A stretch of 64,000 nucleotides of DNA, from NCBI RefSeq assembly GCF_001941975.2, contig NZ_CP146991.1:42501-106500 (forward strand), read 5' to 3'. Shown here one piece after another: positions 36,867 through 41,978 of the stretch (the stretch's first letter is position 1; every line of letters starts with the position of its first letter). The DNA comes from Sporomusa sphaeroides DSM 2875 (GTDB lineage: Bacteria > Bacillota > Negativicutes > Sporomusales > Sporomusaceae). The translations under genes and the position numbers were made by a program. The notes beneath the pieces are model-generated. The model made no database searches. It saw only the letters and a program-made list of their open reading frames with translations, and was not told the origin of the DNA.

Positions 36867-38764
36867 GTTCGCCCGGCATGGGCAGTAACTTGGCGGTGAA
36901 AGTCCGCTATGGGCATGGTAGTGGGAACCATTAGCTGAACAGCAAGGGTGTCCATCGTGAGGTGGAATCTGAAGGAAGCTGTAGGCAAAATCCTGCACCG
37001 ACGAACAGAAACCGCATATAAGGCATATTTGGAGCGGACGAGTTTGCTAGCCAAAACGAAGTCCAACACTACCCGAACTCCATAGTGTAAATGCGGCGGT
37101 GACATGGGATGAAGGTTACTGTTCTTAACCGGGGAGGTCTTGCAAGGCTTCGAAAGACATCGGCAACCCCATGACACCCGAAGAACCCATGCAGTGATGT
37201 ATGGCTCAATTGCAAGAAGTCAGCAGAGGTCATAGTACCGGTTTTTTTTTTCGGGAAGGACCGAACAATAGTAGTCTTTTGAACGAGGATGGTGAAACAA
37301 TGTTAAGAAAGCAGAAAACGGCGAAAGCTGGCTACCGCTATGAGGGTATGTTGGAAACAGAGAGTAATAACGGAGCGCGGAGCATTGTATCACTTGAACC
37401 CGCAGATAAAGACGGTGCATACAGTTTGCTCGAAGAAATACTGCATAGGGACAATCTCAACGCAGCCTATCTGCGCGTAAAACGAAACGGCGGAGCCCCA
37501 GGCATAGACGGAATGGCAGTAGAAGAAATGTTACCCTATCTAAAAGAACACAAAGAAGAATTGCTGGCAAGCATCCGAGGTGGTTGGTATAAACCAAAAC
37601 CCGTAAGAAGGGTGGAAATACCAAAACCAGATGGAGGAAAGAGAAAACTAGGAGTACCAACGGTAATAGACCGCATGATACAACAAGCAATAGCGCAAGT
37701 ATTGGAGCCAATATTTGAGCCACTCTTTTCTAAAAGCAGCTATGGTTTTCGACCAGGCCGCAATGCTCACCAAGCAATAAAGAAAACCAAAGAATACTAC
37801 AAGGAAGGCTATATTAAAGTAGTAGACATAGACCTAGCAAGCTATTTCGATACGGTGAACCATGACATTTTGATAGATAGAATAAGAGAAGAGGTAAAGG
37901 ACGAACAAGTAATAAAGCTGATACGCAAGTTCCTAAAGAGCGGCGTAATGGTAAACGGCTTAGTCAGTCCGACAAGAGAAGGGACGCCACAGGGAGGCAA
38001 CCTCTCGCCCCTCTTAAGTAACATATACCTTACTGCATTTGACCGAATGCTAGAAAGCAGAGGACATAGGTTCGTAAGGTATGCAGATGACTGTAACATA
38101 TACGTCAAGAGCCAAAGAGCTGCCGAACGAGTAATGACTAGTTGTACTAACTATCTTGAGAAGAAATTAAAACTCAAGGTGAACCAGGAAAAAAGCAAAG
38201 CAGGAAGTCCGTTAAGGTTGAAATTTCTAGGCTTCTCCCTATATAAAACAGGGAAAAGAGTAGGAATACGCCCACATGCCAAGCCAATAGAGAAATTCAA
38301 GAACAAGATTAGGCAACTGACAAGCAGAAAACAAGCCAAGCCAATATCCCTGATTTTAAATAAAATGAGGAAATATACGATAGGATGGCTTGGGTACTAT
38401 TCCATAGCCGAAATGAGTTCAAAGATAAAATCACTGAACGAATGGATACGCAGAAGAATAAGACAAATCTTCTGGAAACAATGGAAGAAACCGTCTGCGA
38501 GATTCGATAATCTTAAACGGCTTGGTATACCAAAGCGGAAGGCCAGAGAATGGGCTTACTCCCGTCTTGGATACTGGCGTATTGCCGATAGTTGGATTCT
38601 GCACAGGTCATTAACAAACGAATACCTCGCATCCATTGGCTATGACGATATAGCCAAAAGATACGAGGTAATGCACTCAAACTATTGAACCGCCGTATAC
38701 CGAACGGTACGTACGGTGGTGTGAGAGGTCGGCTACTCAACTAATGGGTAGCCTCCTACTCGAT
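36867..38764 (+). mobile_element. Group II intron, complete with its reverse transcriptase
   Basis: The 5' end reads GTTCGCCCGGCATGGGC with the AAAGTCCGC element following, a variant of the GTGCG-type start of bacterial group II introns. Domain V-like sequence (GAACCGCCGTATACCGAACG ... GTACGGTGGTG) lies after the ORF, then domain VI with the bulged-A hairpin, and the intron ends CTACTCGAT. The insertion point follows a terminator-like hairpin (AATCAGGTGGGG/CCCCACCTGATT then TTTGCTG), as class C introns prefer. Boundaries are by motif and may be off by a few bases. Confidence 0.85.
37300..38688 (+). CDS. ltrA: Group II intron reverse transcriptase/maturase
   Basis: A reverse transcriptase with all core blocks: PDGGKRKLGVPTVIDRMIQQA, SSYGFRPGRNAHQA, the catalytic FVRYADDCNIYVKS, and GTPQGGNLSPLLSNI, followed by the maturase X domain near the C-terminus (GWLGYYSIAEMSSKIKSLNEW and ARFDNLKRLGI). 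There is no HNH endonuclease domain, so it probably uses single-stranded or hairpin target DNA. I chose the ATG at 37300; the frame is open from an ATG at 37201, but that part overlaps conserved intron RNA sequence. The frame is intact and the element could be active. Confidence 0.93.
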   Translation: MLRKQKTAKAGYRYEGMLETESNNGARSIVSLEPADKDGAYSLLEEILHRDNLNAAYLRVKRNGGAPGIDGMAVEEMLPYLKEHKEELLASIRGGWYKPKPVRRVEIPKPDGGKRKLGVPTVIDRMIQQAIAQVLEPIFEPLFSKSSYGFRPGRNAHQAIKKTKEYYKEGYIKVVDIDLASYFDTVNHDILIDRIREEVKDEQVIKLIRKFLKSGVMVNGLVSPTREGTPQGGNLSPLLSNIYLTAFDRMLESRGHRFVRYADDCNIYVKSQRAAERVMTSCTNYLEKKLKLKVNQEKSKAGSPLRLKFLGFSLYKTGKRVGIRPHAKPIEKFKNKIRQLTSRKQAKPISLILNKMRKYTIGWLGYYSIAEMSSKIKSLNEWIRRRIRQIFWKQWKKPSARFDNLKRLGIPKRKAREWAYSRLGYWRIADSWILHRSLTNEYLASIGYDDIAKRYEVMHSNY

Positions 38765-38846
38765 TGCGGCAACAAGTTGCGGAGAATAGCTGTTAGCTTA
38801 TTGCCGTTATTTTTACTGGGAAGAAAAGAGTTTTAATTTTTTCCGT

Positions 38847-38999
38847 ATGCCGGCATCCCCTTGGGAAACACTACATAATAACGAAAACACGGCTTGCAAC
38901 GAGCCTTTGGCAACGGTGGAAGTCGATGTTGATCCTGCTCTTAAGAAAGTTATACTTTCTGTTGGGGCACTAACCATTTCAGGGGGTGAAAGGTTATGA
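38847..38999 (+). CDS. 50-residue hypothetical protein overlapping the AAA ATPase gene
   Basis: An open frame of 50 codons from ATG 38847 to TGA 38999. Its stop overlaps the ATG of the next gene (ATGA), the arrangement of coupled translation. The second half, EPLATVEVDVDPALKKVILS plus VGALTISGGERL, has the composition of a folded domain with alternating strands. No strong ribosome site is seen before the ATG, and the frame stays open upstream to ~38790, close to the intron's 3' edge. I do not recognise a family. It may be a real small partner or the tail of a gene cut by the intron. Confidence 0.45.
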   Translation: MPASPWETLHNNENTACNEPLATVEVDVDPALKKVILSVGALTISGGERL

Positions 39000-40300
39000 T
39001 GAATCTATATTACCGGCTTATCCGTCACAACGGTAATCAGGATCTGTTCCGGGTTGTCGAAATGTCGGTGGCGGCCCTCTTGCATGAACGGCCTTTTCAT
39101 ATTCAGGCAGAAGGCTTGCGCGGCACAGGCAAGACCACCATTATGCGGGCAGCACGGGAACTGCTGCCGCCCATTACCCGGATAAAGGGCTGCCTGTACA
39201 ATTGCCACCCTGCAATGCCGCATTGCCCCTTTCATCGCCGGTTGTCACAGGAAGAGATTGCGCTGTTGGGGACAGAGGAAATTCCCCGGCCGTTTCTGGA
39301 GATATCGCAGGCAGCCAAGTTAGGAACTGTTGTTGGCAGTATCGACCTTGCGAATTTGACCAATCCGGCCAATCCCCTGGCGGCACTTTTGCCTGGCACC
39401 ATTCCCCAGGCCCACCGGGGCATTATTTTTATTGATGAAATCAACCGTTTGGCCGATACGGCCCCGGAACTGGCCGATGTTTTGTTAGATGTTATGGGGA
39501 CGCGGCCGGGGCGGGTACAGATTGAAGAACCGGGCTTGCCGGTCGTTGAGCTGCCGGTAACGGTCAGTATTTGGGCGGCTTCCAATCCGGATGAAGATCC
39601 CGGCCCGCTGAGCCGGATCAGAAAACAGCTGGCAGACCGGTTTGACGTAACGGTCGTTATGGGGCGGCCGGACAATTGCCAGGCTGTTGTTGACATATTG
39701 GCAGGCAAAAGCCGGGAGCAGCCGGTGGCCGGGAATATCGGTCAGCTGTCAGGCAGTTTGGATGCTGTCGAAGTGAGCCCGGAGGTAAGGCTGATATTGG
39801 GGAAAATATATCTGGATTTTGGCCTGGAGAGCCTCCGCAGTGTGGCGGCTATGGAGACCGCAAGCTGTCTGGCAGCTTTGCTGGCAGGACGTTCCACCGC
39901 CGGTATTGCTGAGCTAACGCAGGTAGCACCGCTGGCGTTGGCACACCGGGTCAACGCCGGCACCATTGATGCCATTATGGGTTATCTTAACAGCCTGACC
40001 GGCGGGCAGGAAAGCGGGCAGGCCCCTGTGGCAGAAGGCGCTGAACAGGGAGCCTTCCGGGAAATATCCCCGTGGGTGGCTTGGTGGGTGGCTTGTAAAC
40101 GGCGGCTGACGGCCTGGCTTCAGAGCCTGCCTCATTTACCAGCAGCCGGTATCAGTGGCGATGCCCAGGGTGGAGAAGGGAACGCCCGGATTGTCGATCC
40201 GCTGAAAACCACGATTATTGCACCGCCCAAACCGGCTTTGCCTATTTCTCAATTGCCGGATGAGCAGCTTGTGACCAGGGAACCCAAGCAACATGGGTGA
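38996..40300 (+). CDS. AAA+ ATPase, magnesium-chelatase I subunit-like
   Basis: A 434-residue AAA+ protein related to ChlI/BchI. Walker A GLRGTGKTT is at 40-48, a cysteine/histidine cluster CLYNCHPAMPHCPFH at ~66-80, Walker B IIFIDEIN near 145, sensor WAASNPDEDPGPLS and arginine finger region KQLADRFDV near 210. The cysteine cluster and a ~90-residue Pro/Gly-rich tail are not usual for ChlI. It overlaps the VWA gene by eight bases. No large ChlH/CobN-type chelatase subunit is near, so the metal and the target are unknown. Confidence 0.8.
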   Translation: MMNLYYRLIRHNGNQDLFRVVEMSVAALLHERPFHIQAEGLRGTGKTTIMRAARELLPPITRIKGCLYNCHPAMPHCPFHRRLSQEEIALLGTEEIPRPFLEISQAAKLGTVVGSIDLANLTNPANPLAALLPGTIPQAHRGIIFIDEINRLADTAPELADVLLDVMGTRPGRVQIEEPGLPVVELPVTVSIWAASNPDEDPGPLSRIRKQLADRFDVTVVMGRPDNCQAVVDILAGKSREQPVAGNIGQLSGSLDAVEVSPEVRLILGKIYLDFGLESLRSVAAMETASCLAALLAGRSTAGIAELTQVAPLALAHRVNAGTIDAIMGYLNSLTGGQESGQAPVAEGAEQGAFREISPWVAWWVACKRRLTAWLQSLPHLPAAGISGDAQGGEGNARIVDPLKTTIIAPPKPALPISQLPDEQLVTREPKQHG

Positions 40301-41978
40301 TCGATTGAGGGCTTCTTTGGAACAGTTGCCCTTGGGGCGTTTGGACCAGGCGGCAGCTGTTGTCAGTCAGGCAATTGCGGCAGGCCAGGGGGTACGGCTG
40401 GGGCAAAGCGCGGTGCTGAGTACGAAGGTCCATGCTTTTCAGCCCCGCTGCCCTGAACATGTCCAGATATTAATAAACAGCGATGCCGGTCAGGTCTTTT
40501 ATCAACGCCAGGACGAAGGGGCTGTCTGGCATCTTGATATTTTCCATCAGTGTGGCAGGGTGGATCATCGACAGGCGGCCCGGCATCTTTGTCAGGCTAT
40601 TGCTGTGTATAACGCCTGCGCCGCCAATCAGACAGAGCTGGCTTGCCGGGGGGCAGTTAATCCGGCGTTGCTGGATATTCAGACGGCAACCGGCGGCGGC
40701 AGAATTACCGGCAGCCTGCAGGGCGGGAAAAAACGATCTGTGCGCCGTGCACATGAGAATCACGTTCACGTGGCGCTAAGCATACCTCCTGATGAACTGC
40801 CATGTTTGTTTTATATTGTAGCAGCCGCTGAGGCGGCGGTTGCCGAATCAGGTCTGGAACTCCGGTGCAATGAAGGTATTTCGCATGTCGATTCGACAGA
40901 TAGCCTGGCAGATATTAGCCCTTATACTGATCAGACCGATTCCCTGCTTGTCGGTAAACCACCGGCAGGACAAACCGGGCAGGAGGCTGCGTGTACCAGC
41001 GAGGCTGTTCCAAGCCGACCACCACCGGACAGCACTGGTTCACCGGCAGTACCGCCGCACAAGCAACAATTATCCGCAGGCGGCAAAGGCCAGACGCTTG
41101 TTGTTGTAAAGGAAGCCGGGATACCGGCAAGAGACCGGCAGGCTGCACCGCCGCTTGCTAAGGGCGCTTTTCCTGGTTTTTGCGCTCCCGGTCTGCATGA
41201 CAGTTTGAGGCAGGCAGTACATAACGTACGGAGCAAGGCCGGGCCGATACCGGGTACGCGTACCCTTTTCTATAATCAGGCGGCAGGCAGGAACACAAGC
41301 GCTTCCCTGCCGTTTTCCGCCGGGGTTGATGTGGCTGCTACGGTAAGTGCGGCAGCCGCCCGCCTGCTTGCCGACGGCATGACCGGACGGCTGCAGATTA
41401 GTCCGGCAGATCTCCGGTTTGTTGGTCGGCGGCCCGGACGGGGGAGTGATATCTGCCTGTTGGTTGATAGTAGTGGCAGCATGGCAGGTTTCAGGCTTCA
41501 GGCAGCCCGGTATGTGGCCGGGGAACTTAGCCGTTATGGCTGCAGCCGGCTTAGTTTGGTGACTTTTCAGGATAACCGGGCAGATCTGATTGTACCGTTT
41601 ACTGCCGGTAGGCAAACTGTTCTTAGCGCTTTTGATACCATTACGACCTTTGGGGCTACGCCGCTGGCTTTGGGCATTCGCCGTTCGCTGGCCTATATTG
41701 CGGAGCAACAGGCCCGCAAGCCGCTGCTGGTACTTGTTACCGACGGGATACCCAGCCGGAAATACGAGGAGGCAGTAAATCCGCTGACAGATGCGCTGGC
41801 GGCTGCCGTTGAGCTGAAACAGGCTAATTGTGCTTTTTTATGTATTGGTCTTGATGCAGATGAGGGTTTTCTCAAAAAACTGGCAGATACAGCCGGTGGT
41901 GTCAGCTATATTTTTACTGAGCTCGAAAAACAGCTGAGCAGCCCGGGACAGGCAACAGATGATTCTTCGAGACAATGA
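40293..41978 (+). CDS. VWA-domain protein, magnesium-chelatase D subunit-like, with a distinct N-terminal domain
   Basis: A 561-residue protein. The C-terminal ~190 residues are a von Willebrand A domain with an intact metal site: DSSGS at 392-396 and later TDGIPS. The middle (~220-330) is Pro/Gln-rich linker. The first ~200 residues are not the AAA module normally found in ChlD but a Cys/His-containing region (RCPEHVQILIN, DIFHQCGRVDHRQAARHLC, HENHVHVALSIPPDE). It is paired with the AAA gene and probably forms a ring-plus-VWA machine with it. Confidence 0.75.
   Translation: MGDRLRASLEQLPLGRLDQAAAVVSQAIAAGQGVRLGQSAVLSTKVHAFQPRCPEHVQILINSDAGQVFYQRQDEGAVWHLDIFHQCGRVDHRQAARHLCQAIAVYNACAANQTELACRGAVNPALLDIQTATGGGRITGSLQGGKKRSVRRAHENHVHVALSIPPDELPCLFYIVAAAEAAVAESGLELRCNEGISHVDSTDSLADISPYTDQTDSLLVGKPPAGQTGQEAACTSEAVPSRPPPDSTGSPAVPPHKQQLSAGGKGQTLVVVKEAGIPARDRQAAPPLAKGAFPGFCAPGLHDSLRQAVHNVRSKAGPIPGTRTLFYNQAAGRNTSASLPFSAGVDVAATVSAAAARLLADGMTGRLQISPADLRFVGRRPGRGSDICLLVDSSGSMAGFRLQAARYVAGELSRYGCSRLSLVTFQDNRADLIVPFTAGRQTVLSAFDTITTFGATPLALGIRRSLAYIAEQQARKPLLVLVTDGIPSRKYEEAVNPLTDALAAAVELKQANCAFLCIGLDADEGFLKKLADTAGGVSYIFTELEKQLSSPGQATDDSSRQ

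Follow-up and report, generated by a model that had tools for sequence, protein, structure and literature searches.

Two overlapping genes of Sporomusa sphaeroides DSM 2875 encode a chelatase-like AAA+ ATPase and a partner protein that ends in a VWA domain. Pairs of this AAA+/VWA kind serve in metal insertion or in the remodeling of enzymes, and for many of them we know of no client. The two genes were analyzed as part of a stretch of 64,000 nt, called the window here, and positions are window coordinates unless a contig or locus is named. The features of the locus are collected in Table 1. A sequence-only reading of this DNA had described a chain of three open reading frames (ORFs) and had paired a chelatase-like AAA protein with a VWA protein. 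The three ORFs are present, each overlapping the next, and AAA and VWA homology and the ChlI fold bear out the pairing. Just upstream of the promoter of the pair lies a group II intron whose maturase frame is open; it leaves the promoter intact. In a protein scan, the nearest named relatives of the genome were S. malonica (locus L032) and S. acidovorans (L033).

Table 1. Features of the AAA/VWA locus in window coordinates
Feature	Position	Strand	Evidence
Group II intron with reverse transcriptase/maturase	36951..38764	+	Rfam match limits; exact ends not mapped
-35 box GTATG of sigma-F/G-like promoter	38845..38849	+	Pattern scan, leader alignment
-10 box GGAAACACTA of sigma-F/G-like promoter, spacer 14	38864..38873	+	Pattern scan, leader alignment
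50-codon ORF (50 aa), judged a chance frame	38847..38999	+	Locus comparison, promoter, repeat, leader frames
Dispersed-repeat copy	38890..38966	+	Genome scan, alignment
AAA gene, chelatase-like AAA+ ATPase, 434 aa	38996..40300	+	ORF, homology, alignment, fold
Cys/His cluster C66-C70-C77-H80 of AAA protein	39191..39235	+	Alignment, ChlI comparison
Conserved C-terminal tail of AAA protein, residues 400-434	40193..40297	+	Alignment, reduced relatives
VWA partner gene, 561 aa	40293..41978	+	ORF and domain match; 8-nt overlap with AAA gene end
Unclassified N-domain, residues 1-240 of VWA partner	40293..41012	+	Alignment, model, family scans
VWA domain, DxSxS (MIDAS-type) motif	41448..41927	+	Domain match; motif by eye

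The two proteins

The AAA protein probably starts at the second ATG of its frame, at 38999, where its relatives begin. It scores far below the curated cut-offs of the chelatase profiles, with 113.9 bits against TIGR02442 (cut-off 779.45) and 85.6 bits against TIGR02030, chelatase subunit I (cut-off 466.95). A phmmer search matched it to BchI/ChlI structures (solved matches 1g8p, 8osg, 8osf, and 6l8d), and a predicted model with a mean pLDDT of 77.4 had BchI 1g8p as its best Foldseek match (E 3.1e-17). As modeled, the protein has the ChlI/BchI fold. In an alignment of 27 AAA relatives, the regions that we take to be the Walker, sensor, and arginine-finger motifs are largely invariant, and C66, C70, C77, and H80 are invariant in all. 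The sequence-only reading had regarded these four residues as an inserted cluster (66-80). The cluster is present and conserved, but it is not a special insertion: the genome also encodes an ordinary ChlI, which carries GCPFHCDPADVSRLCDSCR at the corresponding place. A C-terminal tail resembling DPLKTTIIAPPKPALPISQLPDEQLV is common to a number of the AAA relatives whose alignment runs past about residue 330-350, where that of many others ends. The protein thus shares with ChlI/BchI (TIGR02030, or the TIGR02442-type fusion) the AAA core, the lid, and the Cys cluster, and it differs from them in its low scores, in having His rather than Cys as the last ligand of the cluster, in the conserved tail found in a number of its members, and in the absence of linkage to CobN.

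The C-terminal VWA domain of the partner is of the chelatase/CoxE type, as in ChlD/BchD. Unlike ChlD/BchD, the partner has no N-terminal AAA half, and AAA models found no match in the first 240 residues of the window protein. An unclassified, His-rich domain (the N-domain) occupies this place, which agrees with the earlier proposal that the AAA half had been replaced by an unfamiliar domain. The domain had been described as containing Cys and His; its unfamiliarity and its His residues are confirmed, but the conserved residues are His, Asp, and Glu and no Cys is conserved. An alignment of 36 relatives shows S43, H47, D64, G66, H85, T131, H157, and E180 as invariant, with H80, D82, and H159 close to it. 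The AlphaFold2 model of the N-domain is confident (pLDDT 90.4, pTM 0.87). A Foldseek comparison of this model with solved structures returned nothing at E <= 0.001 (best 0.16), and the best match to solved structures by VIA was a chorismate synthase, with a Z of 5.7 and an rmsd of 3.8 over 94 residues, which we regard as uninformative. The N-domain profile had no match among PDB sequences up to E 5, and Pfam and NCBIfam scans of the 36 members gave scattered weak matches with no family found in more than 2 of the 36. Neither Pfam nor NCBIfam thus has a family for the N-domain, and no solved structure resembles it clearly.

The promoter and the leader

The promoter boxes were recognized from the B. 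subtilis sigma-F consensus and were tested afterwards. Six Sporomusa leaders, that of the window included, share the -35/-10 pair, which reads GYATG-N14-GGGAACAATA in four of them and GTATG-N14-GGAAACACTA in the window; in L007 the -35 box is weaker and the spacer is 16 nt. The pattern GHATN-N13..16-GGNNANAHTR was found within 200 nt upstream of the AAA gene in 29 of 114 distinct upstream regions; among the 947 other ORFs that these loci contain, 14 have it. In this count the AAA starts came from homology and the control starts from a longest-frame ORF caller. The remaining 85 AAA upstream regions have no such pattern within 200 nt. The strict form, GYATR-N14, occurs in 8 of the 114 AAA regions versus 1 of the 947 controls. 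When the longest-frame caller was used for the AAA genes as well, the counts against the same controls were 18/108 for the pattern and 7/108 for the strict form. In 100 dinucleotide shuffles of the AAA upstream regions the pattern matched 0.87 of the 114 on average and never more than 3, and on the opposite strand it matched 1/114. Genome-wide, the strict pattern is not enriched (23 sites vs 17 for the reversed control), and it was rejected as a finder of the whole regulon.

The gene gpr is a forespore gene. The AAA pattern occurs in 2 of 21 gpr upstream regions, in which the -10 box is slightly different and the spacer is 15 nt, and in none of the three SASP upstream regions that were scanned (four SASP genes were found in the genome). 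By eye, the SASP gene L168 has GGGAATACTA with a poorer -35 box, and L167 has GTATC-N14-GGCCAACCTA, with a -10 box that is one letter off. Since the AAA pattern had no match in the SASP regions, and since fitting to the AAA genes themselves was to be avoided, the boxes were trained on gpr; 15 of the 21 gpr regions fitted the extraction pattern and six were dropped. At a score of at least 8 bits the gpr-trained boxes are found in 37/114 AAA upstream regions and 68/947 controls. Within the Negativicutes the counts are 20/28 and 12/165 (p 5e-13), and outside them the signal is weak (17/86 vs 56/782, p 3e-4); both p-values are too small because the loci are related and the tests ignore shared ancestry. 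As far as pattern matching can tell, the window carries a promoter of the sigma-F/G-regulon type, and the signal is strongest in the Negativicutes. Sigma-F and sigma-G promoters are described as closely similar, with an extra conserved G upstream of the -10 box for sigma-F (PMC3789822).

The first of the three ORFs had been proposed to be a small gene coupled to the AAA gene. In 111 loci there was no convincing relative of it: its own place was the only good match, and the next (E 0.028) contained an internal stop. Its ATG is part of the -35 box GTATG, so the ORF begins upstream of the expected start of the transcript. About half of its length is a dispersed repeat of ~78-85 nt that is present in at least 40 copies in the window genome, the window copy included (of 86 candidate places, 40 were scored, and all 40 matched, counting the query; 21 copies were aligned). 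The leader from the promoter to the AAA start is ~90 nt longer in the window than in the other five Sporomusa leaders, and the extra length is mostly this repeat. Read from the same ATG, the frame spans 50 codons in the window. In L003 it has 19 and ends at the AAA start, in L032 it has 29 and ends inside the AAA gene, and in L006 it has 17 and ends before the AAA gene; in L005 it continues into the AAA gene in frame. Because these frames differ among the Sporomusa leaders, the frame is not conserved, which is one half of what the sequence-only reading had itself named as telling against its proposal. Judged from these comparisons, it is very unlikely that the 50-codon ORF is a gene; it would be a chance frame through the promoter and the repeat.

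The leader RNA is structured (z -3.29), and an Rfam scan of it gave no match apart from the intron end; the leader was rejected as a separate RNA element, its structure being explained by the dispersed repeat. The repeat (38890-38966 in the window; L202-L221) is itself structured and sometimes tandem, has no Rfam match, and is present in more than 40 copies in genomes G003 and G005.

Distribution, neighbors, and reduced relatives

One protein scan found a relative encoded in each of 211 contig stretches, and the best 80 of these were kept. The VWA partner ORF was recognized in 67 of the 80; others are cut by contig ends or were missed by the simple ORF caller, and tblastn gives a match for some of these. 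The pair is thus real, and it is widespread. Of 299 genomes sampled from the phylum, 90 (30%) match the N-domain profile, nearly always in frames of ~540-670 aa; four frames, all from one genus, are longer (959-1245 aa), and a few are short (89-326 aa). Variations on the pair were also seen. The Thermincola-type loci L062 (9503-14840) and L063 (9801-15174) have one AAA gene followed by three tandem VWA partners, and in L122 and L123 (genomes G048 and G090) a long stretch is inserted into the AAA gene ahead of the lid region, and the linker of the VWA partner is very long.

The recurrent neighbors of the pair, which form at least 21 clusters in the examined loci, differ by lineage. Under the names that we presume from their sequences, one layout is secDF, a membrane protein, DUF456, the pair, and then recJ, apt, and relA; a second is a LytTR regulator, the pair, and then gerM and murI; in a third, rarA and gidA stand beside the pair. 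None of these neighbors was present in the two named Sporomusa loci whose flanks are complete. A constant association with a known chelatase, which the sequence-only reading had set out as the other half of the counterevidence, was not found among these neighbors, and none of the 21 clusters listed reads as CobN. That reading had also noted that no ChlH/CobN-like large subunit accompanies the pair, and this holds: no CobN/ChlH gene adjoins the pair, which starts at C1:81496, and the two CobN genes of the genome, at C1:707049 and C1:771925, lie on the same contig at a distance of over 620 kb. A second ChlI/ChlD pair, from C1:724809, lies between them. In this other region (G000:C1:707049-775248; L194, L002, L195), the two CobN genes flank ChlI/ChlD and the ATPase of an ABC transporter within ~70 kb.

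The N-domain co-occurs with markers of sporulation. Spo0A is present in 89 of the 90 N-domain genomes (absent from G259, a draft) versus 173 of the 209 without the domain, and SpoIVA in 88 of the 90 (absent from G110 and G259) versus 169 of the 209. About two thirds of the marker-bearing genomes have no N-domain match, and neither do G009 and G016, which are close spore-formers with gpr. Because sporulating relatives without the pair exist, the pair is not essential for sporulation and is accessory rather than core.

In several relatives the pair is reduced. The AAA gene of G001 and G007 consists of approximately the first 41 residues and the tail (115 aa), and that of G011 of approximately 18 residues and the tail (101 aa), with a breakpoint unlike that of G001 and G007. 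In all three genomes the next gene encodes the N-domain alone (255-276 aa) with no VWA domain, and the promoter is kept. Between G001 and G007, dN/dS is 0.20 for the AAA remnant and 0.25 for the N-domain; dS against G011 is saturated (2.0 to 3.3). The differing breakpoints, and full-length genes in other members of the genus, point to at least two loss events. In G006 the AAA gene is intact, and the VWA domain goes out of frame at its end and lacks the MIDAS stretch. The frames of G013 are broken, perhaps through errors in the draft. The simplest reading of these sequences is that the motor and the VWA domain act jointly and can be lost together, and that the N-domain and the AAA tail may be worth keeping without them.

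A candidate forespore machine

We favor, with a probability of roughly 60%, the reading that the pair is a two-subunit AAA+/VWA machine of endospore-forming Firmicutes that is expressed in the forespore and has the N-domain as its effector. It draws on observations of the ChlI fold and motifs, the enrichment of the promoter, the co-occurrence with sporulation genes, the conservation of the N-domain, and the reduced forms. The forespore-type promoter and the reduced relatives go beyond what the sequence-only reading had observed.

A reading that we consider unlikely, while giving it more weight than any other competitor, is that the pair is a vegetative MoxR-like chaperone for the maturation of an enzyme of respiration or metabolism, in which the N-domain would be an adaptor that binds the client in the manner of NorQ/NorD and RavA/ViaA. 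The two-part layout is the same, as NorQ/NorD, CbbQ/CbbO, and RavA/ViaA are AAA and VWA proteins that are separate and encoded together. Among the neighbors, secDF, recJ, and relA are housekeeping genes, most AAA upstream regions lack the forespore pattern, and NorQ/NorD is described as inserting metal (PMC9976466). Against this, a forespore-type promoter is enriched upstream of the AAA gene, and three relatives have kept the N-domain without motor or VWA domain, which is ill-suited to a mere adaptor. The window pair also differs from these systems in that its AAA protein is nearest to ChlI and not of the MoxR type, its N-domain is different, and it combines a forespore-type promoter with no evident client gene adjoining.

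That the pair is a tetrapyrrole metal chelatase working with a CobN/ChlH subunit encoded elsewhere is improbable. The modeled ChlI fold, the weak similarity to TIGR02442, and the two CobN genes of the genome would suit it, but these CobN genes have another ChlI/ChlD pair between them, the VWA partner has the N-domain in place of the AAA half of ChlD, and none of the 21 listed clusters of recurrent neighbors reads as a CobN gene. A three-gene system translated in a chain, as the sequence-only reading had proposed, has hardly any probability left, for although the 50-codon frame is open, its stop overlaps the AAA start, and the L003 and L005 frames end at or enter the AAA gene, it has no convincing relative, starts within the -35 box, is about half repeat, and varies in the other four leaders. 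What stands of that proposal of a new metal-insertion or remodeling machine is a chelatase-like remodeling pair that carries an unfamiliar domain and has no large subunit linked to it; its three-gene composition does not stand.

In the forespore machine that we favor, both genes would be transcribed from the promoter described above under a sigma factor of the forespore (F, or F and G). The ChlI-fold ATPase would assemble into a ring and cooperate with the VWA domain in the way of chelatases and NorQ/NorD-type pairs, the two being motor and coupler by analogy with ChlI/ChlD and NorQ/NorD (for the latter, PMC9976466 and PMC13036017). The N-domain, with its conserved His, Asp, and Glu, would do the job as the likely effector, perhaps in a metal-dependent way. 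It may be held to the AAA protein through the first residues and the conserved C-terminal tail of the latter, and the motor may load or reset it, possibly with metal. From the promoter we infer that the expression and timing of the pair are those of the forespore; ring assembly, the contact of the N-domain with the tail, and any metal, client, or spore function are likewise what we infer.

No paper on this AAA/VWA pair was found by titles and the beginnings of abstracts. By word search, PMC3533761 makes no mention of chelatase, VWA, AAA, or MoxR, and PMC3789822 makes none of chelatase or vWA. An archaeal VWA/AAA module is different from the window pair (PMC5898192), and conflict systems that contain MoxR are the subject of PMC7159879.

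The pair offers a sound starting point toward a function in sporulation that has not been described. More tentatively, and at less than even odds, it may be an undescribed sporulation machine of the Firmicutes in which a chelatase-type AAA+ ring and a VWA domain load the N-domain in the forespore, the N-domain being a new enzyme or carrier that depends on metal, and some lineages may have freed the N-domain from its motor at least twice while keeping the end pieces of the AAA protein as its partner. The N-domain is present in close to a third of the sampled genomes of the phylum and yet has no name in Pfam or NCBIfam, and the pair appears to be tied to endospore formation. The natural deletions show which of its parts can outlast the motor, so that the division of labor within the pair is open to direct tests.
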